Origin: Lampris incognitus
Taxonomy: Eukaryota; Chordata; Actinopteri; Lampriformes; Lampridae
DNA: 64,000 nucleotides
NCBI RefSeq assembly: GCF_029633865.1
Contig: NC_079219.1
Coordinates: 52,044,416 to 52,108,415 of the forward strand
Direction of reading: 5' to 3'
The stretch's first letter is position 1; each line of letters starts with the position of its first letter. Below the pieces are notes generated by a model, which saw only the letters and a program-made list of their open reading frames with translations, did no database searches and had not been told where the DNA came from. A program made the position numbers and the translations under genes. Below, piece after piece: positions 6,536 to 61,480 of this stretch.

Positions 6536-6545
6536 GTCCCTCGCC

Positions 6546-7534: not shown

Positions 7535-7607
7535 GTAAGTTTCTTCTGTTACATAGCATTCACACACTTGTTTCCAAAAATGTAAAAAAATGGCAACAGT
7601 GAATACT

Positions 7608-7655
7608 ATTACTACTACTACTACCACCACAATAATGATAGTAATAATAATAATG
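7608..7655. repeat. ACT/AAT-type trinucleotide microsatellite
   Basis: Within TLR intron 1: (ACT)n followed by CACCAC and (AATAAT)-like units. Nothing functional can be inferred. Confidence 0.6.
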
Positions 7656-8019
7656 AATTAGAGTAGGCTACGTCAACAAATACAATGAAACAGTCAAAAT
7701 GCCAGCAAAAGACACGAAATGGCATTTAATAACAGATAACATTGATTTAGTTATCCTGAGCTCCTCCAGCAAAAGCCTTGTAGCCATGATACTGAAGGCC
7801 TGGTCACCTTTGGGGGCCAACAGAAGGGGCCCTGCTCAGGGGCCCTCAAGCAGGTCATTAGATACAGGTCTGATATGAAGACAGTCACCAGGACCTGTTG
7901 CTCTTTACCAGTTAGAAGGAAAATCTTTATTTCAATTCTTAAACTATAAATAAGAGGGAGTTATACTGGTCTTAATGCAGCGATAAAAACATGGAGCAGA
8001 ATCAGAAATTTTTTTATTC

Positions 8020-8400
8020 CGTGTTACCTCCGGCTTGGCCGGGCGTTCCTACAGACACAATTGGCCATGTCTGTGGGTGGGAAGCTGGATGTGGGTATGT
8101 GTCCTGGTCGCTGCACTAGCGTCTCCTCTGGTCAGCCGGGGCGCCTGTTCGGGGGGGGGGGACTTGGGGGAGGGATAGCGTGATCCTCCCATGTGCTACG
8201 TCCCCCTGGTGAAACTCCTCACTGTCAGGTGAAAAGAAGCGGCTGGTGACTCCATATGTATCAGAGGAGGCATGTGGTAGTCTGCAGCCCTCCCCGGATC
8301 GGCAGAAGGGGTGCAGGGATGGCTCGGAAGAGTGGCGTAATGGGCCAAGTACAATTGGGGAGTAAAGGGGGGGGGGGTAATCCAAAAAACAAAAAAAAAA
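8020..8400 (+). mobile_element. tRNA-derived SINE (family A), head truncated
   Basis: Plus-strand copy in TLR intron 1. It begins within the end of the tRNA-like head (CCGTGTTACCTCCGGCTTGG) and continues through the central block (CACTGTCAGGTGAAAAGAAG, about 8221) to a tail with GGGG and A-rich runs. The A/B-box region is lost. It matches the full-length minus-strand copy at 15845-16223. Confidence 0.78.
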
Positions 8401-8528
8401 TTATTTTATTGCCGTGTGCATTACACGCACTAAGAATTTTGCTAGACATTGTTGGTACAGAGAATAAAATTAAATAAAATGAAATTAAAATAAAATGAGT
8501 ATGTGAAAAAAATATACAAAACACACAC

Positions 8529-8568
8529 ATGTATATACACACACACACACACACACACATATACATAC
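8529..8568. repeat. CA dinucleotide microsatellite
   Basis: (CA)n of about ten units with flanking TACA-rich sequence, in TLR intron 1. Confidence 0.8.
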
Positions 8569-8589
8569 ATAAAACAGATCTAGAAAAAA

Positions 8590-8790
8590 TAAAAACAGCA
8601 AAAAGTAAGTCTTTCAGCGGGGGGCTGGGGGGCCTTTTGATTTGTCCAATTGCAACAGGGAAGAAACTGTCCTTGTGGTGTGAGGTTTTGACCCTGATGG
8701 AGGTGGTGTCCAGGGTGGGAGGGGTCAGCGATGATCTTCTCTGCCCACCTCAAGGTCCTGGATACACTTTCAGAGGTCAGGGAAGGTTAA
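8590..8790. repeat. Possible LINE 3'-end fragment
   Basis: Contains AACAGGGAAGAAACTGTCC and GACCCTGATGGAGG, phrases I associate with 3' ends of Rex1-type fish LINEs. No coding part remains. Named from memory of repeat style, so weak. Confidence 0.3.
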
Positions 8791-9384
8791 AAGAAATAAA
8801 TGAAAGATATTTTAAACGGCTCTCTCGTCCCCCTCATTTTAACTTACCTGAGTCAAATACACCACCTGACTTTCTGGCTCCGGAGCTCACATTCATGACC
8901 TGGTTTCCAATGTTGTCTTGAATCTGGTTAACTGTTTGCCTTGGAAGGGCAAACAGAATAAACTCAGATGTATTTTCTTTAAGCTAAAGGAATATTAAGG
9001 ACATCTAGAACAATATCTGAGGGGAAATTCTTGAATCTGCTGGAGTCTCCTGTTTTCTGTGGATAGAATTCTGTATGTCATTTGCATAACTCTGGAAACT
9101 GATTTTACAGTCTGCCTACAGATAATGTCACCAAATGGGAGCACATCAACAGAGCAAGGGCGGGACCATGTTGTGGGAACACCATGAAGCAAATACCATC
9201 TGTTAGCAGTTATAGCTTTCATGTTGTATTATATTGCTTATTAAAGTAGAAGTATGCATGAAATATTCTAACATAAATATTAGAGGCAAAGTGGAAATGA
9301 CATGACAATGCAAAGACAGAGTATGTATAGTGCAGTATACACCTGACATGAACACTTAACACTTAAAATCTCCAATTCTTGTAG

Positions 9385-10567
9385 GTATATAAGTAATCCC
9401 GATGTGCTGCGGTTTGACTGGCGCTTCACCTGGTTCAACAAAATTCAAGATCTCTCCATCCAGTATGTGTACTTCAACAGTGTGCCTTGCGATTCCTGGG
9501 TAGAGATGGAGGGCGTGGAGTCTCTGGATGTCTCCAACAACCGCCTGCACAACACAGCCATCTTCAACCAACGCTGCGATTACAAGGGCAGAATGCGGAG
9601 CCTTCATAACTTCAACATGAGCAACAACGAGCTGTCCAGCTTGAGAGACTTGTCATATCTGACCAGGGAGTTCCAGCGACTACAAGTGATCGATATAAGC
9701 AACAACAAACTGGGCTCTGCTGAAGAAAGCCAAAACTGCGCCTGGAGGCAAAACATCACCAAGGTGATCGCTCACCATAACCAGTTTGTGAGCCAAGCCT
9801 TACAATGTCTGCCAACCACAGTGCAACTCCTGGACCTGTCTTATTGCAGTCTGGACCAGCTGGACATGACTTACTTTGAGAAAACCACCAACCTCAAAGA
9901 GCTCCTTCTCAGTGGGAACAAAATCAAGTTCATCCCCTCTCAGTGGAGAATGGCATCCCTGCAGGCACTCACCCTGGATGGTAATTCTTTTGGCCTCATA
10001 AGTATGGAGTCCTTCCAGGACATGCCCCAGCTATCTCAGCTGAAGGCTGGCAACAACCCTTATCACTGTACCTGTGAAATCCATGCTTTTATCCAGGGAA
10101 CAATGTCAAAGAGGAAGATCAACCTCACAGACTGGCCTGACAGTTACAAGTGTTACCATCCTGAGGCCTTGCTCAACACTGTCATATCTAATTACTTCCC
10201 AGGTCATGTGGCCTGTGACATCAGACTAGTCATCATCATTTCTGTGGCCACCACTGCAACAGTGGTGCTGATACTGATGCTGATCTGCTACCTCTTTGAC
10301 GTTCCCTGGTATACGAAAGCCACCTATCAGATCCTTAGAGCTAAATACAGAGCTCACAAGGAGAAAGCGGTGGAAGGAAGGGAGATTTTCACCTATCACG
10401 CCTTCATTTCCTACAGCCACTCTGACGCCGACTGGGTGAGGGACCAACTCTTACCCTGCATGGAGAACAACAGGAACCCCTACCGCCTTTGTATTCACGA
10501 GAGGGACTTCATGCCAGGAAAGTGGATTATTGATAACATCATTGAGAACATTGAAAGCAGTCGCAAG
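9385..10567 (+). CDS. tlr18: TLR14/18-like, coding exon 2 (LRRs, membrane segment, TIR start)
   Basis: Residues about 330-724. The acceptor TTCTTGTAG|G completes the Trp codon split by intron 1. The exon carries the remaining LRRs (VESLDVSNNRLHN, LQVIDISNNKLGS, VQLLDLSYCSLDQL, LKELLLSGNKIKFI), an LRR-CT cap (NPYHCTCEIHAFIQ), a hydrophobic membrane segment (LVIIISVATTATVVLILMLI, about residues 611-634) and the first part of the TIR domain from about residue 663. Box 1 is YHAFISYS; box 2 is LCIHERDFMPGKW and keeps the BB-loop proline needed for adaptor contact. The exon ends at ESSRK with donor AAG|GTAATG, so an intron interrupts the TIR domain. The preceding intron (1.85 kb) contains a SINE. 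Confidence 0.88.
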
Positions 10568-12249
10568 GTAATGTAGGTAACATGCAGTATAATTTATACT
10601 GAGTTTGACACTACATTACATTGTTTGGCACACCACAGGAAAGCTTTCCTACATGAGTTCTCTATGCTTCACTAAACACCCAGCTACACTTTAATACATA
10701 CTTGTGAAACTTCATCAGCCGTGATGTCAAAAAAAGCTTTACAATACTTCAAATATAACATAAAGTATTTTAACTCAGACACTAGCCTTTTCTTTAAAGG
10801 CAGAGTCTGTAATAGTGTGAAACAGTGGCTTCTCGGCAAATGAGCCCCACTTCGTTACTGCATTTTGTTTACATTTTTTGTTTTGTTCTGACATTTGGCC
10901 GTGTGTGTTAAGTGAGAATAGAGAAGGGATTGTGAAACTGGGAGGACACTTTTTACAATGGCAGACAGAGGAAAGCATTATGAGCTTGTCACCGCTCCTG
11001 CCATCGTATAAATAAATATTGGATATGCTTTCCTGAAATGGAAATATGTTAACCTGATGCGCTTTGGTAGAACCGCCTGCATCCAACATTTCCTTTTTTT
11101 CTGTTTGTAGCACTAATATGTCAATTAGTGCTCCTATACAATAGGATGGGTTAGATGCAGAGAACAAATTCGTTGTAAGAACACGATGACAAAATGAAGT
11201 GGCTTTCTTCTTCCTCTTACTGTAGGCCAATCAAGACACAAGCTTGCCGAACTCCGGAAGCCTTCCTACTTTCATAAATGTATTTTACTTTGCACAAGAC
11301 ATGCCTAGAGATATAATATAACATTTTTCTGTGACCGTCATATTGACAATCTTGCAACATTTCATGGGCTAATTCGTGGGTTTTGGTTGAACTACCATAT
11401 TTGACATGACAGACGCAACAAAAAAGAAAGGCAGTGTTGGACGCAGGTGGTGCTGAAGAAGTTCTGTCACGTCAAGAGCAGGAAGTGAGGACCCAAATGT
11501 AGATGCGGTAATGGGTGAAACAGAAGGTTTACTAGTAGGAAACATGAGGGTATCAGGAACACATATGACGAGAACATGACAGAGACGCGGTGACGTGGTG
11601 GTGACACGGTACAGATGTGGAACGTTCTGACAATGAACAAAGTAAACAGCCAAACTTAAATACACAGAAACTTGATTGAATAATCAATGACAGCTTTGGG
11701 TAAATAGATAACAGAGGCAGACTGGGCAGGACTCAGGACCGGGATGGTGTTGTCAGAGCAGAACAAGACATGAGACATAGAAGCCAGGGCTGGAGTGGCT
11801 GGAATCTGGAGCAGACAAGTTCATCAGGTGAAAAACAAAAGAGGATTCGAAACTGATTCCGTCTTTGCAGCATTTTTACAGTGCAAGTAATCAATAGCTC
11901 GACTTTTTTACCCTACGCTAGGGGTAGCTAACAGTTTGCTATGTTTATTTAGCTTGGCAAACTGTTGTGCTCAAGGTCAGCTAATTAGCTTGCTGCGATT
12001 TCCCCTCTTAGCCCTGGAGAGAGAGAGCGCCATCCAGAGTTTACGCCAAAAAAAAAATGTGTAGTCATTATGAAATAATAACTTGAAGAGTGAAGTTTCA
12101 CACAATTACAGATTCTATCTTTAATAGCCAAGTTGTGTTTTATAGTTCACAGAAGTTCCCCCTAAAAATGCATCACTGGTTTAATTTGATTCTGTGTGTT
12201 GTAAATATCACATCGAAAGTTTTATGTCTCTTGTTTTCTCCATTTGTAG

Positions 12250-12702
12250 GTCATTTTTGTCCTTTCGCGGCACTTTGTGAACAGTGAGTGGTGCAACTAT
12301 GAGCTTTACTTTGCCCAGCAGAGAGCCATGAGCAAGACCTTCAGTGACGTCATACTGATCGTGAAGGAGCCAATCAATCCCAACTCACTGCCGAGCAAAT
12401 ACTGCAAGCTCAAGAAAATGTTGAGCACTAAGACCTACCTGGAATGGCCCCAGCAAGCCAAACAGCAGGCATTTTTCTGGGCACAGCTGAAGAGCGTTCT
12501 GGGCAAGCCAACGCTGCCAAGAGAGAGAGCGCACAGCACCAGAAGCACAGCCTCCTCAGTGGGTGCTGTGTCAGTGATAGAGCTCCCCCTAGAGGATGGG
12601 AGGCCAGAAACAGCCCAGGCTGATGAAACGGAACTTCAACAAGAGTTTACTCTAATGAATAATGAGCAGCACAACCAGACGACAGTCTCTACAGTAGCTT
12701 GA
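12250..12702 (+). CDS. tlr18: TLR14/18-like, coding exon 3 (TIR end and C-terminal tail)
   Basis: The acceptor TTTGTAG|GTC is in phase 0. The exon continues the TIR domain (VIFVLSRHFVNSEWCNYEL, the central strand and helix region typical of TLR1/2/6/10 relatives) through KTYLEWP and the box 3 FW (FFWAQLKSVL). The TIR ends near residue 809. About 65 further residues follow, rich in Ser, Thr, Gln and Glu. A tail of this size is not seen in TLR2 or TLR1 and is one reason to prefer TLR14/18. Stop TGA at 12700-12702. All structurally expected TIR motifs are intact, so the receptor is probably functional. Confidence 0.88.
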   Translation, partial: VIFVLSRHFVNSEWCNYELYFAQQRAMSKTFSDVILIVKEPINPNSLPSKYCKLKKMLSTKTYLEWPQQAKQQAFFWAQLKSVLGKPTLPRERAHSTRSTASSVGAVSVIELPLEDGRPETAQADETELQQEFTLMNNEQHNQTTVSTVA

Positions 12703-16372: not shown

Positions 16373-16529
16373 TGTAACGTGCATGGATAAGTAGACACGC
16401 TGGCCGCTGGCTCGCGGGTCTGAGCCTTTAGTCGAGCGGTTAGCGATGCCTCCTGCGGTGCGGGCGATACGGGTTCGCTTCCCGGCCGCGGCAGTTCCTG
16501 TGGTTGCGTTGTCCCCCGAATTCGCTACA
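16373..16529 (+). mobile_element. Solo LTR of tRNA-bearing miniature LTR element
   Basis: 157 bp, starting TGTAACGTGCATGGATAAG and ending CGAATTCGCTACA, flanked by the 4-bp duplication ATAT (16369-16372 and 16530-16533). Its interior has a tRNA-like block with A-box-like TTAGTCGAGCGGTTAGCG and B-box-like GGGTTCGCTTCC. Same family as the complete element at 29711-30109. It lies within the L1-type LINE; removing it plus one ATAT keeps the LINE frame continuous (with one in-frame stop). Confidence 0.85.
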
Positions 16530-22440: not shown

Positions 22441-24036
22441 GATAAAGTCATTTACATCCACTGATAGTACGGGTGTCCAAAGTGGAGAGCAACCTAAGCT
22501 TTACCAGTTGATCTTAATGACAGTATGACTTAAGAAGGACATTTTTAGTATGGTTATTATTTTTACAGTGCAGGAGCAGCTCTGTCACTTGTTTGTGTAG
22601 GCTATTGCATTTAAAAAAAAATTTTTTTAGGGAAATGAGGCTCCATGTAAAACATGCAAACAGGTTGCATGTAAATTTTCAAGAGGCCTGTACCCTGGCC
22701 ACCTGGACTTACCCATGAAGATTAAAACCTCAATTTTGCATTCAATAAACAGAAGAGTCAAGAGGACTAGTCTGCTCTTAATTTTTATGGCCTCTTCAGT
22801 TAAATGATCTTGTCACAATCTTTTGAGCTGGACCGCAGGCGCCAACCACTTTGGTCCACGTCGCTCAGTATTCCCTCTGCCTACATGTGTGCGGTGATGT
22901 TTTTCTGTGACCAGCACAACGAGTTCCTCAACAGGGCAATTCTAAACCTGCGGATACTGTAGAGATTCTCCCTATTTATTTCTGGCCTTCTCATCTGTAA
23001 AGAAGGATATCTCTCACGTTCCTTCACTCGCTCACTAACTTATCTTCAGGTATCTAGATGCTTTCTTATAGACGCTCTGAGACACCCTTTTTTGTTCTAC
23101 TTTAGTAAAAATGGAGTTATTGCCTTTGTCTAAAGCAACATGTCACACACCAACCACACAAACTTGGTAAGGCTGCAACCTACCCTCACTCTCATTTATA
23201 TGATAGGTGACTTATTTGCTTCACGCCCTCCCCACCCCCCATTCAATTCAGTGTTACAGCAGCTTTCTTTTGGTATCTTTTACAATTGCAATTTTGCTTA
23301 CCCAGCATGTATTTGCCAGTTTTTAAACACGGTGTAAATACTGCCAAATATTTGTGTGCATGCACATAAGTATACTAGCTATCACGCAAAACTTGCATCT
23401 ACACAAACTGCATGCCTATAATTGGGCTCTTGGCCTGAATGGTTTACCTTGGATATGCTCACTACTGCCACTTTAAGGTTAGTGGCGAAAAGTTGCATTA
23501 TCCAATGTTAACGCTGGCAAAGTGAAAGGATGTCATGTTAATTTATTAAATTCTGTTTTAAGCCATGCAAGGTTTGCTGTCAAGCTAAGGAGGAATATAG
23601 CCCATTATGAAAAGAGGAAAGATGAGGTGTGGAATATGTTTAGGCGTATAGGTGAAAGAGGTGTTAATATGTTGTGGTTGTGTTAGAGAAGAAGAGTTTG
23701 CTGGTGGATTTGTAGAGGGGAGCACTTTTGTTGTGATTGGGGATGGAGGGAGGGTGATGTTGGATTTTGGTTGAACAGTATACTGTGTGTGGTATGTGTG
23801 TATTTTTTGTTTGATTTCTTTGATTTGGAGGGGGTCCATAGGGTGGAAGCCATGCCGGGGCCTGCAGGTTGCATAACTATTTTCTGTTTTGTCGACCTGT
23901 GTTGTAATTTTTGATTCTTGTCCTCTTCGATTCTGTAGAGTTCCATGGGGTTGTGAAATATTTTGGTTTGGTATATGTGTTTTGTATTTTGAATGTTTTT
24001 TTTTCCTATATAGAATAAAAGAGTGAGAAAAAAAAG
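22441..24036. other. No gene recognised
   Basis: Open frames at 23140-23337 (+) and 23585-24039 (-) have low-complexity, non-conserved-looking translations. Nothing else was seen. Confidence 0.4.
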
Positions 24037-24039
24037 CAC

Positions 24040-24115
24040 AGTCGCCCGTAGTGCGGGCGACCCGGGTTCAAATCCCGGCTGCGGCGGTTCCTGGCTACCC
24101 CCCTGTATTCGCTGT
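24040..24115 (+). mobile_element. Fragment of tRNA-bearing miniature LTR
   Basis: CAGTCGCCCGTAGTGCGGGC, then the B box GGGTTCAAATCCC (24065-24077; best canonical match in the window), then CGGCTGCGGCGG and a terminal-like TATTCGCTG. It matches the 3' half of the LTR at 29711-29865. The LTR start and A box are missing, and no target duplication is visible. Confidence 0.55.
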
Positions 24116-24369
24116 GTACAGTGTCTTCAGTTTACAAACTCTATGTGTTCTGGTGGTTCATTTCAGAATAAAATTGGCTGTTATTTTTATGTCATGATCT
24201 ACACACTAGCTAGTTAGCTAACAAGTTAGCATAGATGACTAGTGACTGTATGTGCAACATTGCCGTTTATAATCCATCAATTAATTAATTCAGCGATAAA
24301 AATCGAATGTGCGTTGATTATATATCAAGTTTTTGTCTGTTTAGCTGTGAATCACACGGCTTCACACCC

Positions 24370-28905: not shown

Positions 28906-29710
28906 GCAAGCAAAATTTCATTTTTATAGCAATTTTAAAAAAACACACAGTTACAAAATGCTTTACACTCCATACACAAAATACGAATGAATACGTGAAT
29001 TATTATAAAAAGATGGTATCGGGAGTAACAGATAAAGCTAAGAATGAAACAAAACAGAAGTCAGGGGTGGGAATCTATGAGAAGGCTTGTCTGAATAGAT
29101 GGGTTGTTAGAAGCCGCTTAAAACAGTCCAAAGATTCAGCAAATCTAATGGATTGGGGAAGATTATTCCAGAAGCTTGGGGCTAGAACTGCAAAGGCGTG
29201 GTCACCTTTTGTTTTGCAGTTGGCGTGAGGGACGGATGTAAGACCGAGGTTTGAGGATCGGAGTGGTCGGGAAGAGGAATGAGAAGATCAGATATATAAC
29301 GGGGCAAAATCATGCAGTGCTTTGAATGTAATCAATAAAGTCTTATAGGTTATTCTGAATTTTACGGGGAGCCAATGGAGGAATGCGAGAATATGCAAGA
29401 ATATATTCTTGGATCCCTCCATTGGCTTCCCATATTACATATTACATATTGGGTCCCATATTACCCCTAGGACGTAGTACTAGTTAGTAGTCTAGCAGCT
29501 GCATTCTGAACCGACTGTAGACGAATTTAAAGTAGCTTGGTTGAGGCTAGAGTAGAGGGAGTTACAGTAATCTAGACGAGAGAAAATGAAAATGTGAATT
29601 TTTCGACAAAATATTTCTGATTTTTGCAACATTTCGTAGCTGAAGAAAGCGGGATTGGACAAGTTTAGTAACATGGTTATCGAAAAACATATTCTGGTCA
29701 AAGATAATAC

Positions 29711-30109
29711 TGTAACGTGCATGGATAAGTCGACATGTTGGTCCTTGACTAAGGGGTCGGACCCTTTAGTCGACTGGTTAACGTTGTCGCTTGCGGAGCG
29801 GGAAACATGGGTTCGCGTCGCGGCTGTGGCGACGGTCTCCCAGACTGCTCCCCGAATTCGCTACATTGGTGTCAGAAGTGGGCTGGTGAGGTCATTGGAA
29901 GCGCGTGCGCTCAGATGCCCGAGGGAGCTGATATGCTGAAGCGCGGGAGCGCGCTTCCCGAAAGAGGGGAGGGGGGTAGTGTAGCGTGCATGAATAAGTC
30001 GACACGTTGGTCCTTGACTAACGGGTAGGACCCTTTAGTCGACTGGTTAACGTTGTCGCTTGCGGAGCGGGAGACACAGGATCGCGGACTGCCCTCCGAA
30101 TTCCCTACA
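29711..30109 (+). mobile_element. Complete miniature LTR retrotransposon (TRIM) with tRNA-like block in its LTRs
   Basis: 399 bp with every structural part of an LTR element but no coding capacity: target duplication ATAC (29707-29710, 30110-30113); 5' LTR 29711-29865 (TGTAACG...CGCTACA); primer-binding site 29867-29882; a 97-bp spacer; polypurine tract AAAGAGGGGAGGGGGGTAG (29961-29979); 3' LTR 29980-30109, shortened by a deletion across its B-box region. Each LTR carries a tRNA-like segment (A box TAGTCGACTGG at 29767-29777; B box GGTTCGCGTCG at 29810-29820, 33 nt apart as in tRNA genes). Transposition must rely on another element's proteins. Pol III transcription from the LTR is an inference. 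Confidence 0.85.
29867..29882 (+). other. Primer-binding site of the miniature LTR element
   Basis: TGGTGTCAGAAGTGGG begins 2 nt after the 5' LTR. Its complement ends in CTTCTGACACCA, which matches the 3' end (with CCA) of vertebrate tRNA-Leu(CAA) as I remember it. The same motif in inverse orientation occurs at 61330-61344 in a second copy, and a related one at 39811 in the Gypsy element. Confidence 0.75.
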
Positions 30110-30253
30110 ATACCAACATTTTTAGCGGTAGGTTTGATGATTGAATGAAGTGGACCAATAAACTGATCAACTGCAGGGGCAAAGTTCTGAGGACCAACTA
30201 AGAGAACTTCAGTTTTGTCGGGGTTTAGATGGAGGAAATTAAGGGACATCCAC

Positions 30254-35526: not shown

Positions 35527-36658
35527 GTATACGTAGATGATAGCAGAGATGCTGGTTATAGATGATAGCAGAGATACTAGTTATAGATGATAGCAGAGAT
35601 GCTAGTTATAGATGACAGCAGAGATGCTAGTTATAGATGATAGCAGAGATGCTAGTTATAGATGACAGCAGAGATGCTAGTTACAGATGATAGCAGAGAT
35701 GCTAGTTATAGATGATAGCAGAGATACTAGTTATAGATTATAGCAGAGATGCTAGTTATAGATGACAGCAGAGATGCTAGTTATAGATGACAGCAGAGAT
35801 ACTAGTTATAGATGACAGCAGAGATGCTAGTTATAGATGATAGCATAGATACTAGTTATAGATGATAGCAGAGATGCTAGTTACAGATGACAGCAGAGAT
35901 GCTAGTTATAGATGATAGCAGAGATGCTAGTTATAGATGATAGCAGAGATACTAGTTATAGATGACAGCAGAGATGCTAGTTATAGATGACAGCAGAGAT
36001 GCTAGTTATAGATGATAGCAGAGATACTAGTTATAGATGACAGCAGAGATGCTAGTTATAGATGATAGCAGAGATGCTAGTTATAGATGACAGCAGAGTT
36101 GATAGTTATGGATGATAGCAGAGATGCTAGTTATAGATGACAGCAGAGATGATAGTTATGGATGATAGCAGAGATGCTAGTTATAGATGACAGCAGAGAT
36201 GCTAGTTATAGATGACAGCAGAGACAGATGACAGCAGAGATGCTATTTATAGATGACAGTAGAGATGCTAGTTACAGATGACAGCAGAGATGCTAGTTAC
36301 AGATGACAGCAGAGATGCTAGTTACAGATGACAGCAGAGATGCTAGTTACAGATGACAGCAGAGATGCTATTTATAGATGACAGTAGAGATGCCAGTTAC
36401 AGATGACAGTAGAGATGCTAGTTACAGATGACAGCAGAGATGCTAGTTACCGATGACAGCAGAGACAGATGACAGCAGAGATGCTATTTATAGATGACAG
36501 TAGAGATGCTAGTTACAGATGACAGCAGAGATGCTGGTTATAGGTGACAGCAGAGCTGCTAGTTATAGATGACAGCAGAGATGCTAGTTACAGATGACAG
36601 CAGAGATGCTAGTTATGGATGATAGCAGAGATGCTAGTTATAGATGACAGCAGAGATA
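35527..36658. repeat. 25-bp minisatellite array
   Basis: About 45 tandem units of roughly 25 bp: TAGTTATAGATGACAGCAGA followed by GATGC. Units vary at a few sites: GACAGC or GATAGC, GATGCT or GATACT, TTATAG or TTACAG. Variants cluster: GATACT units occur only before about 36030, and TTACAG plus TTTATAG units dominate after 36230, where a longer compound unit with an extra AGACAGATGACAGC appears twice (36222 and 36463). Unit length is not a multiple of three and there is no ORF through it. Confidence 0.92.
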
Positions 36659-36757: not shown

Positions 36758-38388
36758 CAGTGCATCCGGAAAGTATTCACACCCCTTCACTTTCCCCACA
36801 TTTTGTTATGTTACAGCCTTATTCCAAACAGATTAAATTCCTTTTTTCATCAATCTACACACAATACGCCATAATAACAAAGTGAAAAAGGTTTTGTAGA
36901 ATTTTTTGCAAATTTATTAAAAATAAAAAACTGAAATATTGCATGTACATAAGTATTCATACCCTTTGCTATGACACTCAAAATTGAGCTCAGGTTCATC
37001 CTGTTTCCACTGATCATCCTTAAGATGTTTCTACATCTTGATTGGAGTCCACCCGTAGTAAATTCAATTGACTGAACATGATTTGGGAAGGCACACACCT
37101 GTCTATATAAGGTCCCACTGTTGACAGTGCATGTCAGAGCAGAAACCAAGCCATGAAGTCAAAGGAATTGTCTGTGGACCTCCGAGACAGGATTGTATCG
37201 AGGCACAGATCTGGGGAAGGGTACAAAAACATTTCTACAGCTTTGAAGGTTCCGAAGAGCACAGTGGTCTCTATCATTCATAAATGGAAGAAGTATGGAT
37301 CCACCAGGACTCTTCCTAGAGCTGGCCGCCCAGCCAAACTGAGCAATCGGGGGAGAAGGGCCTTGGTCAGGGAGGTGACCAAGAACCCGATGGTCACTCT
37401 GACAGAGCTCCAGCGTTGCTCTGTGGAGATGGGAGAACCTTCCAGAAGGACAACCATCTCTGCAGAACTCCACCAATCAGGCCTTTATGGTAGAGTGACC
37501 AGACGGAAGCCTCTGCTCAGTAAAAGGCACATGACAGCCCACTTGGAGTTTACCAGAAAGCACCTAAAGGACTCTCAGACCATGAGAAACAAGATTCTCT
37601 GGTCTGATGAAACCAAGATTGAACTCTTTGGCCTGAATGCCAAACGTCACATCTGGAGGAAACCAGGCACCTCTCATCACCTTGCTAATACCATCCCTAC
37701 AGTGAAGCATGGTGGTGGCAGCGTCATGCTGTGGGGATGTTTTTCAGTGGGAGGAACTGGGAGACTAGTCAGGATCGAGGGAAAGATGAATGGAGCAAAG
37801 TACAGAGAGATCCTTGATGAAAACCTGCTCCAGAGCACTCAGGACCTCAGACTGGGGCGAAGGTTTACCTTTCAACACGACAACGACCCTAAGCACACAG
37901 CCAAGACAACTAAGGAGTGGCTTTGGGACAAGTCTGTGAATGTCCTTGAGTGGCCCAGCCAGAGCCCAGACTTGAACCCCATTGAACATCTCTGGAAAGA
38001 CCTGAAAATAGCTGTGCAGCGACGCTCCCCACCTAACCTTACAGAGCTCGAGAGGATCTGCAGAGAAGAATGGGAGAAATACCCCAAATATAGGTGTGCC
38101 AAGCTTGTAGCTTCATACCCAAGAAGACTTGAGGCTGTAATTGCTACCAAGGGTGCCTCAACCAAGTACTGAGTAAAGGGTGTGAATACTTATGTACATG
38201 CAATATTTCCGTTTTTTATTTTTAATAAATTTGCAAACATTTCTACAAAACCTTTTTCGCTTTGCCATTATGGGGTATTGTATGTAGATTGATAAGAAAA
38301 AAAGGAATTTAAACCATTTTGGAATAAGGCTGTAACATAACAAATTGTGGGGAAAGTGAAGGGGTGTGAATACTTTCCGCATGCACTG
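36758..38388 (+). mobile_element. Tc1-like DNA transposon with intact transposase frame
   Basis: 1631 bp, flanked by TA (36756-36757 and 38389-38390). The ends CAGTGCATCCGGAAAGTATT and its near-complement AATACTTTCCGCATGCACTG define inverted terminal repeats that stay similar for about 215 bp (36758-36972 and 38172-38388), including GGTTTTGTAGAA-like and GTACATAAGTATTCA motifs just outside the gene. Length, TA target and repeat-flanked single gene all match Tc1/mariner elements of fish. Confidence 0.92.
37153..38172 (+). CDS. Tc1-like transposase
   Basis: 339 residues with no internal stop, the full family length. The N-terminal paired-like domain (LSVDLRDRIVSRHRSGEGYK, STALKVPKSTVVSIIHKW helix-turn-helix) is followed by an AT-hook-like GRPAK, then the DD34E catalytic core: first Asp in WSDETKIELFG (about residue 152), second in FQHDNDPKHTA (about 244), Glu in SPDLNPIEHLW (about 279, 34 residues after the second Asp). 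The glycine-rich box GGGSVMLWGCF is present. It would bind the terminal repeats and cut and paste the element at TA. Whether it is still active cannot be judged from sequence alone. Confidence 0.92.
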   Translation: MKSKELSVDLRDRIVSRHRSGEGYKNISTALKVPKSTVVSIIHKWKKYGSTRTLPRAGRPAKLSNRGRRALVREVTKNPMVTLTELQRCSVEMGEPSRRTTISAELHQSGLYGRVTRRKPLLSKRHMTAHLEFTRKHLKDSQTMRNKILWSDETKIELFGLNAKRHIWRKPGTSHHLANTIPTVKHGGGSVMLWGCFSVGGTGRLVRIEGKMNGAKYREILDENLLQSTQDLRLGRRFTFQHDNDPKHTAKTTKEWLWDKSVNVLEWPSQSPDLNPIEHLWKDLKIAVQRRSPPNLTELERICREEWEKYPKYRCAKLVASYPRRLEAVIATKGASTKY

Positions 38389-39635: not shown

Positions 39636-39810
39636 TGTCATATATGGTAGTCAAATATGCTTGCGCATATACTGTGTGATATACGGGAATACGGGAACAA
39701 CGTAGGGGGCTGACCTCGGGGAGTTCCGGAAGAGTGTACGTGTGTTCCCCGGCGGTGATTCACTAAAACCGAAAAAAAGCTAAATAAAGCCTCCATCGCA
39801 ATTATTTACA
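39636..39810 (+). repeat. 5' LTR of the Gypsy-type element
   Basis: 175 bp, TG...CA ends (TGTCATATAT to TTATTTACA). It contains AAATAAAGCC (39782), a likely poly(A) signal, near its end. The copy at the 3' end differs by numerous substitutions and small indels, indicating an old insertion. Confidence 0.85.
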
Positions 39811-40231
39811 GGGTGTCAGAAGTAAACAACGAGAGGAGTCGTGGCTAAATTCAATCCCCGACGAACCTTTCCTTCGATAAACCAGGCGAGTGGCCGGATT
39901 GGAAGCAGCATTTCGTGAGATTCAGAACCACCACTAAGGGAGACAAAGAAGATGGCGCCGTGCAGGTGAGCAGCCTGATATACGCTATGGCAGATATCTT
40001 CAACAGGGGGTCCTCAGAGTTACTGCAGGGGGTCCGCCAAATTATTTGACTCCAAACTTTTTTTCTCCCCAAAATATGCCCCAAAATATGCCCCAAAATA
40101 CACATTAACCTATAAAAAGCAAAGATAAATCTTCCTATTCGTTAAAAAATTACAACATCGAAAATGCCCATGAATCCTCGTGCAATAATGCGATCACCCT
40201 GAAAGCCGAACACCAGCTAGCTATCCCATTG

Positions 40232-40345
40232 TAACCGGTTATCTTCTTGCCCGGTGCGGGATTCGAACGGGGTGTACTGCACCAAAGGCGACATCATTAA
40301 CCGCTTGGCTAAAGGGTCAGACCCGTTAGCTAGGGGCTAACGTGT
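40232..40345 (-). mobile_element. Diverged relative of the tRNA-bearing miniature LTR
   Basis: Minus strand shows TAGCTAACGGGTCTGACCCT, an A-box-like TTAGCCAAGCGGTTAATG and a B-box-like CGTTCGAATCCC. The order and spacing match the LTRs at 40441 and 29711, but sequence identity is much lower and the ends are not clear. It could instead be a separate tRNA-derived SINE that shares ancestry with the LTR's tRNA-like block. Confidence 0.45.
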
Positions 40346-40440
40346 CTTATTAGTAGTTTACACTATGCTAAACCACTCTTGGCGGCGCCAATAAAACACT
40401 GGAAATAATTGCATGCCATATTAGCCAAATAGGTACGTAT

Positions 40441-40597
40441 TGTAACGTGCATGGATAAGAAGACACGCTGGCCGCTTGTTGGTGAGTCTGACCCTTTAGT
40501 CTAACGGTTAGCGATGTCTCCTGCGATGCGGGCGACACGCGTTCGCTTCCCGGCCGCGACAGTTCATGTGGTTACGTTGTCCGCCGAATTCGCTACA
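40441..40597 (+). mobile_element. Solo LTR of tRNA-bearing miniature LTR element
   Basis: 157 bp, TGTAACGTGCATGGATAAG to CGAATTCGCTACA, flanked by GTAT (40437-40440 and 40598-40601). A-box-like TTAGTCTAACGGTTAGCG; B-box-like CGTTCGCTTCC. Inserted in the hAT/ZBED fragment. Confidence 0.87.
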
Positions 40598-40810
40598 GTA
40601 TTATCAGCCAAAGTATACGGCCATTCTTACGTTAATGTGATCTACAATGGATCACTTTGTAACCTCTCGACCAAGAAACTCTGACAGACCCTGGACTTTA
40701 TCACGAACCACTGGCGAAAGTACAGAGGATGAGGCTAACGCAGCTGCTAACAGCCATGCTACAACTGCTGCTAAGCACAAACGAGAGAAGACCCGAAAAT
40801 ATTCAGAGAA

Positions 40811-41444
40811 CTAGACGAACCCCGCTACAATGTAGCGGTTTGGTTATCCACCCGTCTAAATCTCCCTCCTCTTCATCCTGCCAGCTAACCACCTTCCCCC
40901 TGCCCCTAAACCCCCCCCCCACTCCAACTCCCTCCCCCCAAATGCTCAGATTCATCTGAAATGCCGAGAAAAGTGGTTTTTAGCCATTTTTAGAAAATGC
41001 ATATTTTGCATAATTATTATAATTATTTTAATTTTCTGCTATTTTTCTGGTCCTCTCTGGAACAATACCTACCACCTCCAAAAAAAAATTGGGATCATAA
41101 GTGCATTTTTGCAAAAATGCATTTATTTTGCATAATGCCAAAACATTTCTAAGTCCCAGAAAAAAAAATGTATAGGTGAAAAAAATCAAAGATGCTCAGA
41201 ATCATCTGAAATGCCGAGATAAGTTGTTTTTAGCCATTTTTAGATAAATGAATATTTTGCATATTTATGCATAATTAATTATGCATAATTTTAATTTTCT
41301 GCTATTTTTTATAGGTGCCCCTGATCATCCCCAATAACCTCCAAAAAGAATCAAGGCCCCAAGTGCTTTAGTTTGGCCGTTTATAGACTCTCACACAGAC
41401 ACACACCACACACCAGACACACATTGCGAAAATACAGGAGTAGA
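40811..41444 (-). mobile_element. Non-autonomous Helitron inserted in the ZBED-type ORF
   Basis: Minus-strand termini TCTACTCCTGTATTTTCGCA (5') and hairpin CCGCTACATTGTAGCGG plus CTAG (3'), inserted between A and T. It lies within a codon of the ZBED-type frame, and joining the flanks A and T without losing a base keeps that frame open on both sides: direct evidence for insertion without target duplication. Very similar to 5206-5846. Confidence 0.9.
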
Positions 41445-42707
41445 TTGTCTCAGGTTTGGATTTACCTTTAAAGAGAATGAGGGCGTTGAATGACCAGTGT
41501 GTGTCATCTACTCTGCTGTGCTGTCAGTGCAGAGACTGGGAGAGAAAGCTGAGACTTTTATCCGGACTATGAACTGCGACTTCGGCACGAGCAGAGATGA
41601 GAATATCCACGACCTGACGCTAGCACTGACCTTAGAGATGGTCAGGCAGTCTGAAGAGGTTGCTTCGTAAGTCAGCATGCAACGAGAGGCAACTGGGGTA
41701 ATACATGAAGTCACTCACAAGTGCAGCAAATACACCAAACACCACGGTAAGCCAAAAGGGGGAATTAATGGACAACGTGGATAGTGTAGGAAACTGCGGC
41801 AAAGTAAAGATGAAAATTGCTCAGCTAGAAAATCCAAATGCAATACGTGCAACAAGGTTGGACATTGGAGTAGAGTGTGTAGCGTCAGGAAAGCAATGAG
41901 TGAGGTTACAGAGCAAACAGAGCAGCTGCAGTCATATTTTCTTGGGGCTGTGAGTAAAGCAGATGGGTCATCAGAGCAAAGGGCCATCAAGTTGCTGGTG
42001 GGCTCCGCACCAGTTGAATTCAAAATTGACACGGGAGCTGATGTTAACATCATCCACAAGGAGACCTACCACTCACTCATCCCCAAAAGACCACTGGAGC
42101 CTGCAGATATTCCACTGGATAGCCCAGGCGGCAAGCTGCAGTGCGTAGGACAGATCCAGAACACTGCATCCTACAAAGGAAAGACTCACCCACTCACAGC
42201 ATATGTCATCCGCGGACACACTGTAAACAACTTACTCAGCAGACCACTGTCTGTAAAGGTGAATCTGGTGTGGAGAGTGGATGAAATGGTGTGCAACAGA
42301 GGACACCTACAGGCATATTGTGAGCATGGGACATTAAAGACTGAACCTGTGAGAATACAGCTGAAAAACAATGCTCAGCCATGTGCTGTACACACAGCAT
42401 GGCACATACCTCTCCCTATGCTGAAAAAGGTAAAGTAGGAGCTCCTGAGGATGAAGAGAAATGGCATAACTGAGGATGACGCAGCCCACCAGCTGGTGTG
42501 CACTTATGATGCCAGTCTTGAAGAAGTACACAGGTAAAGCCCGCATCTGTGTTGATCTCACAAGGCCGAACGAGGCTGTGAAGAGAGAATAGTATATCCT
42601 GCCTACAACTGATGAGATTACAGCAAAACTAAGCGGGGCCAGTCTTTTCTACACTCGACGCCGCCAGTGGATTCTTCCAGATACCGCTGCATCCAGACAG
42701 CCTAAGC

Positions 42708-43050
42708 CAGTGTTACTCTGTACGTGGCTCGCGAGCCGCATGCGGCTCGTGAGACTTTATTTTGCGCCTCATATAGAGCCACTGATAACAATAAGAACAT
42801 AGCTATAACTTACTTCTATAGGTTCCGTTTGTGTCCTGTTTTAGCACATTGAAATGAAGTATCCAGCAGATGGCAGCATACTGAAGATACGTCAAAGAAC
42901 GTAGGCTATGTAACAGCGTGGGGTCATGGGTAGACGTATAGCCTATGTGTGTAGTTTTGTATTTGCGAAATGTTTTGCAAGCTCTGTGGCTCTTTGAGGA
43001 ATGGTCTTACTCATAAGTGGCTCTCCTAAGAAAATTAGTGAGTACCACTG
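42708..43050. mobile_element. hAT-type MITE in the RT region
   Basis: 343 bp with terminal inverted repeats CAGTGTTACTC and GAGTACCACTG (one mismatch) and an 8-bp target duplication GCCTAAGC/GCTTAAGC (42700-42707, 43051-43058; one mismatch). The interior contains GTGGCTCGCGAGCCGCATGC, itself palindromic, and no ORF. The 8-bp duplication and CAG...CTG ends fit hAT. Confidence 0.75.
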
Positions 43051-43054
43051 GCTT

Positions 43055-43450
43055 AAGCTCATGACCTTCATTACGCCGTTTGGCCGATTCAACTTCCAGC
43101 GGCTACCGTTTGGAATTACGAGTGCACCCGAAATCTTCCAGGGGAAGATGATGGAGACCCTGCAAGGGCTGGAGGGTGTTGAGGTCTTCATGGATGACAT
43201 TCTTGTCTTTGGGGCCACAGAGGAGGAGCATGACAGTCACCTGGAGAAGGTAATGCAGCATATAGAGACAGCTGGTTTGAAGCTCAACCGTGAGAAGTGC
43301 TCCATCAGGCAGAGTCAGCTGCAGTTCCTCGGGTATCTCATTGACTGGTCTGGGATCCGGCCTGACTCCTACAAAGTGTACGCTATTCGGCAGCTGTCAC
43401 CACCAGCAGACGTGCAAGAGTTGAAAAGGATACTGGGAATGGTGAATTAG
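43055..43450 (+). pseudogene. Reverse transcriptase fragment of the Gypsy-type element
   Basis: Contains FGRFNFQRLPFG (about 43078) and the catalytic FMDDILVFG (about 43186), then LGYLIDWSGI and an LGMVN-type end with a TAG stop at 43448. The N-terminal part of the RT is separated from it by the hAT MITE (42708-43050) and is itself frameshifted. Confidence 0.82.
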
Positions 43451-43573
43451 TTAGGAAGATACATCCCCAACCTCTCAACAGTAAGACAGCCACTGTATGA
43501 GCTCCTGAAAAACAAGAATGCATGGACATGGAGTCACGCACAATAAACAGCCTTTGAACACATCAGGGAGCTG

Positions 43574-43985
43574 TTGACAACTGCGCCAGCACTTGCTTAC
43601 TACGACGTTAACAAGCCCACTGCTGTGTTGACAGATGCAAGTAATTATGGATTGAGGGGTGTACTCCTTCAACTCCATGGGGAGGAGTGGAAACCTGTGG
43701 CATATTGCTCCAGACGCCTCACAGAAGCAGAAACACACTATGCTCAGAGAGAAAAGGAAACTCTGGCTGGTGTGTGGGCGTGAGAGAAGTTTGACAGATA
43801 CCTCAATGAACTGGAGCAGTTTAAGCTTGTAACTGACCACAAGCTGCTAGTGCCTCTCATTAACAGCCACAGCATGGACAATGTACCTTTACGATGCCAA
43901 CATCTTCTCATGAGGCTCATGAGATTTAATCTAGTATTAGAGTATGCTCCAGGGAAAACTGATCGTTGCAGACACCCTGTCACGC
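43574..43985 (+). pseudogene. RNase H fragment of the Gypsy-type element
   Basis: AVLTDASNYGLRGVLLQ carries the first catalytic Asp; EAETHYAQREKETLAGVWA the Glu region, ended by TGA at 43783; then TDHKLLVPLI and LEYAPGKTD in a continuing frame. The stop after GVWA breaks the domain. Confidence 0.8.
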
Positions 43986-44329
43986 AGTCCACTGGCTAGC
44001 ATATGCACAGAGACTGACACACAGTGAGTTAGCCTGTTATGTGGCTAGTGTAGTGGAGGGGATCCCTGTGTCTACAAGCAAAATGGATAAAAACAGAACA
44101 GCAACAGTGGCTGATGCCGAACTGCTGTCAGTCATGAAGCTCATAAAGACTTGATGGCCTGAACACTTAAGCAGTGTGCCTATGGATGCGAGAGAGTATG
44201 TCCAATCGAAATCAGAGTTGTCAGAATACAATGGCCTTGTCCTCAGAGGAAGCAGGATAGTCGTGCCGAGGTCAATGAGAGGTCAGATCCTTCAGAAAAT
44301 TCACGAAGGGCCTAGTTAAATGTAGGGAG

Positions 44330-45376
44330 AGAGCGTGTTCATCTGTGTGGTGGCCCGGACTCTCTATGGAAATAAACAAGCTCGTGACGTCATGCCAGGT
44401 GTGCCGTGAACTGAGAAGAACACAACAAAAGGAACCTCTCATCTACAACACTTCCGGAGCGACCCTGGAAGAGAATTGTAATGGACCTCTGTGAGCACAA
44501 ACACCACAGCTCCCTGGTAATTTCAGATTATTACTCCATGTTTATAGAGATACTGCACCTGCCCTCAACAACATGTGCACAAGTTATCCAAAACCTGAAA
44601 ACAGTCTTTGCTAGGTTTGGCACTCCAGATGAGGTGGTGAGCAATAATGGATCCCAGTTTTCAAGTGCGGAGTTCCAGGAGCTTGCGAGGCAGCTGGACT
44701 TCAAGCACTGCACATCCAGCCCTGACCACCCACAGGGCAATGGGCACGCAGAGAGAGCTGTACAGACGGCAAAGAAAATGCTCACGCAAGAAGATCGTGT
44801 GATGGCTCTAATGAACTATAGAGCCACTCCCTGCTCCACCGCAGGCAACAGCCCAGCTTGTCTGTTGATGCGGAGAAAAATCAGAACCACGCTCCCCACT
44901 TTAGAGAAAAATTGCCTACCAAAATGGCCCAGCAGAACAGCTGTGGAAAAAACAGGATGGGAGGGAAAAGGCTAAACACTCACTACTTCAACCGCCATCA
45001 TGGAGCCAGGCCCTTACCTGCCCTGCAACCAGGAGATGTATTCTCCAAGTTGGACCATGAAAACTCGTGGTCTTTGCCAGTGGTGATCTTAAGTGAGAGC
45101 ACCACCCTGAGATCCTTCGTCATCAGGACACAGCAAGGGGCAGAGCTGAGGCAGAACCACCATCACCTCCAACCAGGGCTGGTTCCCCAGCCTATCCCAG
45201 CAGCGCCCGGTGAGAACACAGGGACAGACACCCACTCTGATGGAGCCACCATGTTAGAGACTGTTCCCCTTCAGTCAGTGTGGCTACACCCACAACCCCT
45301 CTACCCGGTCAGACTGTGGCCAGATCTGGACGGGTGTGCAAGCCAGTCAACAGGCTTGACTTGTAGACAATTTTGA
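44330..45376 (+). pseudogene. Integrase fragment of the Gypsy-type element
   Basis: Zinc-finger region remnants (CQVCRELRRTQQKEPL near 44395) precede the core: VISDYYSMFIEI with the first catalytic Asp (about 44525), SNNGSQFSSAEF where the second catalytic Asp of the usual DNG motif is replaced by Asn (about 44645), and GHAERAVQT with the Glu (about 44750). A frameshift follows near 44880, after which a C-terminal region continues to 45376. The Asp-to-Asn change alone would inactivate the enzyme. Confidence 0.8.
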
Positions 45377-45677
45377 TCATATGGCCTGTGTGGGGTGGGA
45401 AGGACAGAAAGGTACTAAAAAAAATTTTAAAAAGGGAGGAAACAAAAGGAAATTTGTATTGACATTGATGTCGATAATGTTGATTTGTGTTTATGAAACT
45501 GTAACCCTTGGTTGAGTAAGAAAGAGACCGGTATATGTTCAGTTTGAGTTAATCTTGATTTATGTGCTGTTAAATCAGAATCAGAATGCTTTATTCATTA
45601 CCGAGGGGAAGTTAAAATGTCCATTTCTGTTGAAGTGTTCCTTTGATGTTATAGAAATAACACAAAAGAGGGGGAGA

Positions 45678-45864
45678 TGTCATATATGGTAGTCAAATGC
45701 ACTTGCACATATACTGTGTTATATACGGCAATACAGGAAATACGTAGGGGCTAGATGACCACAGGGAGTTCCAGAGGAGTGTACATAAGTGTTGGTGTAT
45801 TGCCTGACGGTGTTTCATTAAAAGCAACAAAAGCTAAATAAAGCCTCCATTGCAATTATTTGCG
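45678..45864 (+). repeat. 3' LTR of the Gypsy-type element
   Basis: About 187 bp, same start TGTCATATATGGTAGTCAAA and same AAATAAAGCC poly(A)-like motif as the 5' LTR. The exact right border is uncertain because the terminal bases have changed (TTATTTGCG versus TTATTTACA). Confidence 0.82.
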
Positions 45865-46252: not shown

Positions 46253-47984
46253 AGCTCAACTTTTAAGATTTTCAGCATTTTAAGCAATGCATGTTTCCCA
46301 CCAGTTTTGACACTACTTACACTTTTTTTTTTGTTGAGATATGTAACTTTTTTAGCAAATCAGCTTTTATAGAAACAAGTGCAATAATGTGTGGAACCTC
46401 CTGGAGCATGGAGAGATCTGTGGACGTCACAGTTTACAAAGGATTTGATGAGAAGCTATGTAGTATACAGCTTTGACCACAAGGTGTCACTGCGGTACAA
46501 AATTGAAACAATGCGAAAGGCTTCAATTTAATGTGTCTTTATCAACCAATCGCAGTACACGTGCAAAAACAACAAAATATATGATAATATTGAAAATAAT
46601 TACATCTTCCAAAAAAAAAACAACGTTGGAAATATAGCAGGAATACCAAAGATATTCTAATTCTAAATCCTTATTTTCACAACTATACATAATTCTAATC
46701 ATTTTCTCTGTTAAGTCAACCCACATTTTTACTAAAAACGTTTTGCCTGTTAATTTGTTATAATCTCATGAAATAGCTAATAAAAAAGTAACTGTAAACT
46801 TTATTTTAGACCTTTTCTCATTCGTCCTGTTTGCATAGCATCCTTGTTTTCATCTGTGCTGAAGGAAAATTTAAACAGTTGGAACTGCCGAGTCTGTTCT
46901 GCCAAGTTGTCACAGACTTACAGAGGGTAGCATGTTAAGCTGTTATCCCACTAACACACTGGCGACCAGAGCTCATCTTTTCATACAGATCTAGAAGCAC
47001 TGCCATTGTGAAAACCTTTTTCATGCAAACTCAGCCATCATCAAGAATGTGGAGGTATTTAAAGCATGTAATTAATGGAAGAAGAAAAACTATTAAAATC
47101 TATAACTACTGAGTATACCTTGACATGTCTTTCCTAGTCGCTGTTATCACATTGTATGGATTTGACTCGGGGGTCATTTATTTCCAAGACCCACTTAAAT
47201 TGAACTGAACTGAGGAACTGAATAAACAGACGTTCAGCGCTCAACAGTTTAGTTGTCAGCTCTGACAGACTTGAGAAACGTCAGCTGTAAATGTATGAAT
47301 TAAAGGTTTTAAGTCGTTTCTCCATTTAAAAGTTTTCAAGTTTGGCATACGGATTAATGAGAAAAGGCCTCACCGAGGCACTACGGCAGCAGGTCCACGT
47401 GAAGGGAGGTGATGTGGGCCTAGTTAGCACAAGCTGAGTTTAAATGTGTCTCTGTTCAAACATGGTTCTAGTAGACTATTACAGTTTATTTTATATTCGT
47501 CACAACACAACGATTAAAGCAGGTTTCTACAAACGTAGACATTGATCATCAATTAATTCCTTCTTGACACACTCCGACCTCCACCCACACATTTGGTGTC
47601 ATCCATGTTGACAAATGTTGTCGTTTCAGCATCCGGCACTAAAAGAAAGTCGAGGGTATGATGTCCATCCACAACTCCTGGATGGGGTGAATGAAATACA
47701 AGAATTGCGTTTGGACAATCAACACCAGACTCCCTGTCACACGGCACCGCAGCATCACTCAGCCCCGAGGAATGAAACCTGCACGGGTAGGAAGGAGCAT
47801 GGACGCCATGAAAATAAAAATAAATATACATCAATAAATAAGTCGCCTCTCAGGTGAACACTATACACACCACACATTCAACTTTGGTAGAATGAAAATG
47901 AATAATAAAATAGAAGTTGGCAGTGGTATCTCCAACTGAAGTCCAACTGGAGATGTCTTTCCAAAATGGGCTTTGTACAATCTT
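46253..47984. other. No gene recognised
   Basis: AT-rich. A minus-strand open frame at 47553-47834 (CPNAILVFHSPHPGVVDGHH within it) looks less random than its neighbours but I do not recognise a domain, and no splice context is clear. Nothing else was seen. Confidence 0.35.
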
Positions 47985-56219: not shown

Positions 56220-56266
56220 GTATGTCTGTTAGGAAACGACCGACACCCAAATTAACGTTTTAATAC

Positions 56267-60378: not shown

Positions 60379-60505
60379 TGTAGTGAATTCTGGGGGCAGC
60401 CGGGAATCCGCCGCAGCCGGGACGGGCGACTGTGTTAACCAGTCAACTAAAGGGTCCGACCTGTTAGCCAAGGACTAGCGAGTCTAGTCATCCGTGGTCG
60501 TTACA
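60379..60505 (-). mobile_element. Solo LTR of tRNA-bearing miniature LTR element
   Basis: 127 bp, TGTAGTGAATTCTGG to GGTCGTTACA on the + strand, flanked by ATAT (60375-60378, 60506-60509). It sits in the RTE LINE between the palm motif and MYEGSVTVV. The LINE copy at 1825 begins right after this site and offers part of the empty-site sequence (GATATGTATGAGGGCAGTGT). Confidence 0.86.
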
Positions 60506-61079: not shown

Positions 61080-61480
61080 TGTAGCGAATTCGGGAGGCAC
61101 TCGGGAACCGTCACAGCCGGGACGCGAACCCGTATCTCCTGCACCGCGGGCGACAACGTTAACCAGTCGACTAAAGGGTCCGACCCATTAGCTAACGTTC
61201 CTACTTATCCGTGCACGTTACACTACCCCCCTTCTTCGGGAAGCGCGTCCCCGCGCTTCAGCCTATCAGCTCCCTATGCCCTCACGCCTCTGGGCGCACA
61301 TGCTTCCGGTGGCCTCACGGTCGCACCATCCACTTCTGACACCAATGCAACGAGTTAGGGGGGCAGTCCGGGGACCGCCACAGCCGGGACGCGAACCCGT
61401 ATCTCCTGCACCGCGGGCGACAACGTTAACCAGTCGACTAAAGGCCATTAGTCAAGAGCTAACGTGTCTACTTATCCGTG
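61080..61480 (-). mobile_element. Second near-complete miniature LTR element (TRIM), one end lost
   Basis: Plus-strand order: LTR 61080-61222 (TGTAGCGAATTCGGGAGG to GCACGTTACA), inverse polypurine tract CTACCCCCCTTCTTC (61223-61237), internal region, inverse primer-binding site CCACTTCTGACACCA (61330-61344), then the other LTR 61346-61480, which stops at CTTATCCGTG without its last bases. The adjoining LINE sequence is also deleted there. The tRNA-like B box (inverse, GGGACGCGAACCC) is intact in both LTRs. It confirms that the 29711 copy is not a chance arrangement. Confidence 0.82.

Follow-up and report, generated by a model that had tools for sequence, protein, structure and literature searches.

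The element at positions 29711–30109 (+ strand) of the window, by which we mean the whole stretch of 64,000 nt analysed here, raises the question of whether a TRIM can carry a tRNA-type promoter in its LTRs and still move in the manner of an LTR retrotransposon. The sequence-only reading had proposed a miniature LTR–interior–LTR element at this place, and its repeats, TGTA/TACA ends and ATAC/ATAC duplication were all recovered. This unit (unit A) has LTRs of 155 bp (left) and 130 bp (right) around an interior of 114 bp (Table 1), with direct repeats at 29708–29817 and 29977–30086 that are 91% identical over 110 nt, and with 9.2% divergence between its first and last LTRs. No open reading frame longer than 114 aa overlaps it, in agreement with the proposed lack of coding capacity. 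A primer-binding site, TGGTGTCAGAAGTGGG, is found inside the left LTR as proposed, at an offset of 1 nt and not of two; in the window, allowing up to three mismatches, it was found elsewhere only in unit B, with one mismatch. We take this site to be complementary to the 3′ end of a tRNA-Leu. The interior closes with the purine tract GGGGAGGGGGG, followed by TAG and then by the right LTR; the predicted tract is therefore present but does not abut the LTR. The A-box-like and B-box-like motifs of the left LTR start 43 nt apart. Such a box pair had been ascribed to each LTR, which is true of the family at large but fails for the right LTR of unit A, because this LTR falls 25 nt short of the left one and has a degraded B box, GGATCGCGGAC.

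Table 1. Parts of unit A and further LTR copies located in the window.
Feature	Position	Strand	Description
Left LTR, unit A	29711..29865	+	155 bp, TGTA...TACA
Interior, unit A	29866..29979	+	114 bp, T run of four absent; polypurine tract, then TAG at end
Right LTR, unit A	29980..30109	+	130 bp; 25 nt below left LTR length, B box degraded
Target-site duplication ATAC, left copy, unit A	29707..29710	strand-less	sequence
Target-site duplication ATAC, right copy, unit A	30110..30113	strand-less	sequence
A-box-like motif TAGTCGACTGG, left LTR, unit A	29767..29777	+	7/7 specified positions
B-box-like motif GGTTCGCGTCG, left LTR, unit A	29810..29820	+	7/9 specified positions
Primer-binding site TGGTGTCAGAAGTGGG, unit A	29867..29882	+	1 nt inside left LTR
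Unit B, LTR-interior-LTR	61080..61480	-	LTRs 61346-61480, 61080-61222; 5' LTR truncated at outer end
Solo LTR D	16373..16529	+	duplication ATAT
Solo LTR E1	40441..40597	+	duplication GTAT; within Gypsy element
LTR E2, second family	40230..40362	-	duplication not clear
Solo LTR C1	56079..56219	+	duplication GTAT
Solo LTR C2	56267..56389	-	duplication ATAC as read on +
Solo LTR F	60379..60505	-	duplication ATAT; tRNA-like block partly deleted
LTR fragment G, 5'-truncated	24033..24118	+	B box GGTTCAAATCC

A profile built from nine LTRs of the window recovered those nine and two partial matches (E 1.2e-16 and 6.9e-10), so that the estimate of about nine LTR units holds, with an LTR of a sister family and a fragment in addition. 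All six doubly ended copies (A, C1, C2, D, E1, and F) are flanked by exact 4-bp duplications, which read ATAC, GTAT, ATAC, ATAT, GTAT, and ATAT on the + strand, respectively, and all conform to RTAY, a pattern that occupies 1.4% of window positions. We searched the window for empty sites with the joined flanks of these six insertions, and no junction-spanning match was among the matches listed. Two pairs of LTRs in opposite orientation are located less than 100 bp apart (56079–56389 and 40230–40597).

We used the 399-bp unit as a query against the host assembly (1.48 Gb) and obtained 4351 first-look candidates; scoring of 40 of them yielded 48 matches, 46 of which cover 348 or more of the 399 bases in the query, showing that the structure recurs as a unit across the genome. 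Thirty loci, chosen by similarity to unit A, were fetched, and after removal of two duplicates 28 loci with 63 LTRs were analyzed. Two-LTR copies are mostly 417–430 bp long, with LTRs of about 155 bp and interiors of 109–124 bp (mode 117), and arrays of three or four LTRs were found in five of the 28 loci. Divergence between first and last LTRs ranges from 0.6% to 20.1% across loci, and the primer site TTGGTGTCAGAAGTGGGATG is exact in 17/28. The family of unit A (family 1) is present in thousands of copies: the 20-mer at the left end of its LTR, TGTAACGTGCATGGATAAGT, has 4219 exact occurrences in the genome, which bears out the earlier view that the family has been successful. This 20-mer is preceded by GTAG, taken as the interior junction, at 1096 places, and by RTAY at 2018, corresponding to 65% of the 3123 left ends outside the interior junction. 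The junction of TACA with the primer-binding site was found at 4019 places, and the reversed-pattern control was 0 for all four counts. Exact 4-bp duplications flank 15 of the 28 loci, and 13 of these 15 are RTAY. These TRIMs have a strong preference for RTAY targets. In four of the 28 loci (L013, L014, L022, and L028), the left flank reads ATAG and the right flank ATAC or ATAT, the same base next to TGTA being the one that differs, which may reflect primer removal at the purine tract.

The best A- and B-box matches are 43 nt apart in 62 of the 63 genome LTRs and 42 nt apart in the other one. The A box TAGTCGACTGG is exact in 54 LTRs, with the other nine scoring at least 6/7, and the B box GGTTCGCGTCC is exact in 34/63. 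The tRNA-like spacing noticed at first withstood dinucleotide shuffling in each of the five sequences shuffled, since only 0 or 1 of 400 shuffles reached the box-pair score of the LTR majority sequence, A5, C1, D, and E2; the other window copies entered the scoring alone, and A3, C2, F, and G have lower box scores. Four other repeats in the window look tRNA-headed and have a like box layout, with a distance of 44 nt. Similarity to tRNA was measured against eight human tRNAs in six sequences, five of which exceed their shuffles. The observed similarity was reached by 0 of 300 shuffles for the LTR majority sequence, C1, D, and E2, by 4/300 for B3, and by 39/300, which is not significant, for copy F. 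In an ungapped comparison with tRNA-Asp, the LTR majority sequence agrees at 37 of 55 positions.

The covariance-model and tRNA-gene checks named in the sequence-only reading came out negative where tried: Rfam gave no tRNA match (E up to 10) for the window, for three short pieces of it, or for five loci from the genome, and ARAGORN detected no tRNA gene in the window or the 28 loci. Relaxed ARAGORN settings gave a sense call on the LTR majority sequence, which we set aside because an antisense call appears too at a lower threshold. RNA folding of two LTRs was no better than that of shuffles. Across the 63 LTRs, conservation of the A box at non-CpG positions is 98.8%, compared with 94.9% for the LTR overall, and its two CpG positions are kept in 98.4%, compared with 88.3% for all 34 CpG positions; conservation of the B box is average (94.6% non-CpG, 92.9% at CpG sites). 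Among 140 stretches ranked by conservation from 0, the A box ranks 4 and the B box 106. In the 11 window copies alone, the most conserved stretch is not significant (172 of 2000 permutations reach it). Because the boxes are kept, yet no Rfam or ARAGORN match was obtained and the RNA folds are ordinary, the promoter boxes seem to have been retained while the tRNA itself was lost.

From the sequence of this block, we infer that these TRIMs may be transcribed by RNA polymerase III. We also considered a TRIM transcribed by RNA polymerase II, in which the tRNA-like block would be left over from a SINE that once inserted into the LTR and has ceased to act as a promoter; the lack of a tRNA model match where tried and the average conservation of the B box are consistent with this. 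However, the A box is conserved, CpG included, and the box matches lie 42–43 nt apart in 63/63 LTRs, a regularity that argues against a relic. Polyadenylation signals were found in 0/63 genome LTRs, unlike the LTRs of a Gypsy element in the window, both of which contain AATAAA, and no TATAWA motif is present in the 11 window copies, the set checked. We therefore regard polymerase II transcription with a relic block as unlikely. A run of four T residues (T4) occurs in 3/63 LTRs and in 0/28 interiors; for unit A by itself the absence says little, as 129 of 300 of its shuffles are T4-free, and 9 of 200 shuffle sets of the 11 window LTRs are T4-free too. The first T run downstream of unit A is at 30119.

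Two further explanations concern the mode of movement. The ends of the unit are short inverted repeats, and 4-bp duplications flank each of five solo units in the window, as would be the case for a small DNA element that moves by cut and paste, has TGTA...TACA ends, and takes its LTR–interior–LTR form from a tandem insertion; but TACA is joined to the primer-binding site at 4019 places and GTAG to the LTR start at 1096, and because neither interior junction would be expected of a DNA transposon, we consider this very improbable. A tRNA-headed SINE moved by a LINE, or a SINE dimer, would account for the tRNA-like head and for the arrays of three or four LTRs (5/28 loci), but is hardly credible in view of the constant TGTA/TACA ends, the primer-binding site and purine tract, the 4-bp duplications at fixed ends, and a fixed TACA end without an A-rich tail.

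TRIMs with tRNA-derived LTRs were named Helenus by Kojima 2024 and include fish families such as LTR-11_DR, and TRIMp3 is the name proposed for TRIMs with a Pol III promoter (PMC10886601). According to that article, animal members have 4-bp duplications and are mobilised by Gypsy elements, vertebrate members use tRNA-His, -Leu, or -Lys as primers, most Helenus boxes contain TRGCY and YGG in the A box and GGTTC in the B box, and a zebrafish family with tandem arrays has 5575 LTRs (PMC10886601). The claim that no named family matches was thus overturned at the level of kind, as Helenus is such an element and is present in several fishes (PMC10886601). Our elements share with Helenus, as far as it is described there, the TRIM form, the tRNA-like A/B-box block in the LTR, a tRNA-Leu primer site (as in some vertebrate members), the purine tract, 4-bp duplications, solo LTRs, tandem arrays, LTRs in the thousands (as in zebrafish), and the general absence of a functional tRNA. 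The family 1 boxes are TAGTCGACTGG and GGTTCGCGTCC, in which TAGTC is one base off TRGCY, and the second family has TAGCC. Of the features that mark Helenus members, the A/B-box block in the LTR, the TRIM form, the primer site with purine tract, and the 4-bp duplications were found, whereas in place of the tail and variable-length duplications of a tRNA-derived SINE there are a fixed TACA end and 4-bp duplications. The elements are Helenus by kind, their likeness to LTR-11_DR and other named families being one of description.

The anatomy, copy number, box spacing, shuffle tests, A-box conservation, and RTAY duplications support the Helenus-type reading. The absence of an Rfam or ARAGORN tRNA, the ordinary folds, the average B box, and the non-significant conservation peak in the window count against it, as do the weak T4 signal in unit A, copy F without tRNA similarity, and a Gypsy partner that was not found. 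On balance, unit A is likely a non-coding Helenus-type TRIM (TRIMp3) with a tRNA-derived A-box/B-box block in its LTR that works as proposed below.

Differences from the described cases were also observed. We judged the host to be absent from Table 1 of PMC10886601, in which the ray-finned fishes are sturgeon, paddlefish, Cypriniformes, a catfish, and milkfish; the available text of that article mentions neither RTAY targets, nor sister families of one genome with different tRNA-Leu primer sites, nor an LTR chimera. Plant Cassandra elements likewise have a small-RNA promoter within a TRIM LTR, but it is derived from 5S rRNA, they are confined to land plants, and they are described as the only validated TRIMp3 lineage (PMC10886601). 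Literature searches for fish or teleost TRIMs that have tRNA or Pol III features gave no other report by title among the matches listed, and a search for 'Helenus' with 'retrotransposon' gave, beyond Kojima 2024, only a meeting report that cites it, in the text available. The 13-base primer-site string was not found in the literature, and the element patterns were not found in viral and prokaryote collections. The present analysis adds a further host, a sister family with another tRNA-Leu primer site, the chimera, and the strong RTAY choice.

In the Helenus-type reading, RNA polymerase III would start just upstream of the A box of the left LTR, and the transcript would read across the interior into and past the right LTR and end at a T run. 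As T4 is mostly absent from LTRs and interiors, T runs in the flanks would terminate many transcripts. A tRNA-Leu would prime reverse transcription, and first-strand transfer would use the part of the LTR lying downstream of the start, a part that both LTRs contain and that would serve even if the RNA overruns the right LTR. The enzymes would necessarily come from an LTR retrotransposon, presumably a Gypsy element making 4-bp duplications that provides Gag, reverse transcriptase, and integrase in trans. The interior contains a stem, GGAAGCGCG/CGCGCTTCC, which is located between the primer site and the purine tract and is paired in 254 of 272 cells across 28 copies, compared with at most 60% when slid; no compensatory changes were found in it across these copies. 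This stem could be a packaging signal.

A degenerate Gypsy element at 39636–45861 of the window has LTRs about 6.04 kb apart, ORFs for reverse transcriptase and integrase, a protease match below threshold, and a tRNA-Leu-like primer site, GGTGTCAGAAGT; it houses two TRIM LTRs, the solo LTR E1 and the family 2 LTR E2. Comparing its reverse transcriptase with the genome gave 21595 candidates, and all of the 150 scored matched (150/150). Four Gypsy regions were fetched, two of which (L053 and L054, one young family) show LTR pairs, 100% and 98.7% identical, with open frames of 1303 and 1327 aa. Like the TRIMs, these two have TGTA...TACA LTR ends and a primer site that starts with TGGTGTCAGAA (full site TGGTGTCAGAATAG), but they differ in their 5-bp duplications (CTGTC and CTTTT), LTR start, and coding capacity. 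A mobilising Gypsy element with 4-bp duplications was not found among the four regions. Because the duplications of L053 and L054 are 5 bp long, the integrase behind the 4-bp RTAY duplications probably comes from another element. The partner would be recognisable by 4-bp RTAY duplications and the primer site TGGTGTCAGAAGTGGGAT or TGGTGGCAGCGGTGGGAT.

At one locus (L016), a related element of a second family (family 2) adjoins a family 1 copy. Its LTR starts with TGTAAGCTACTAATAAGACACG, its block reads TAGCCGAGCGG...ATCGAATCC, and its interior opens with TGGTGGCAGCGGTGGGATC, which we take to be a tRNA-Leu-AAG primer site. The family 2 20-mer CTACTAATAAGACACGTTAG has 5411 occurrences in the genome (control 0), and many of its places are paired about 239 bp apart among the matches listed. 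The identity of family 2 to family 1 (L003) is 66% in U3 and 74% in the A-box region, but 61% over the remainder of the block and 38% in U5. One LTR at another locus (L019) is of family 2 in U3 (96%) and of family 1 from the A box onward (96, 89, and 93%), and the switch falls within GACCCTTTAG, which the two families share and where Pol III is presumed to start. This single chimera (n = 1) shows that exchange occurs at the promoter block and is silent on its frequency. Such a switch could arise by strand transfer between co-packaged RNAs at GACCCTTTAG. Since the two families have the core in common but diverge in their U5, their interior, and their tRNA-Leu primer site, and since L019 switches at the block, it is conceivable, though doubtful, that the tRNA-like core of the LTR is a promoter module that can be transferred and that TRIMs change their Gypsy partner by swapping everything outside the promoter.

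If so transcribed, TRIMs with Pol III-type promoters would extend, with thousands of copies, to another branch of bony fishes, and this genome offers a testing ground for their promoter use, partner choice, and target choice. It also illustrates a way in which an abundant vertebrate repeat could join SINE-like transcription to LTR-type integration.

The window also contains a TLR18-like gene (6501–12699, +) with several ORFs (6501–7535, 9347–10573, and 12250–12699) that have leucine-rich repeat or TIR domains. The ORF 6501–7535, the one compared with other proteins, resembles fish TLR18, in keeping with the fish host that had been proposed. Of 86 homologs, five (P0082–P0086) were left out, and in the resulting tree of 82 rows, seven of them named, the query is grouped with acanthomorph and salmonid (euteleost) sequences and away from Sinocyclocheilus, a cyprinid; support for the inner branches is weak. 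Judging from this one gene, the host would be a euteleost outside Ostariophysi; we give this placement only as a judgement, because the inner branches are weak and only seven rows are named. At L020, an Rfam match to the twister-P1 ribozyme (2884–2964, − strand; 51.2 bits, E 4.5e-9, below the gathering score of 67.2) is located about 1 kb from a TRIM copy. Elsewhere in the window are a mir-219 precursor (47650–47729, − strand, 66 bits), a 353-aa open frame for a Tc1/Sleeping Beauty-type transposase (37111–38169, +), and a minisatellite (35534–36657) with about 45 copies of a 25-bp unit.
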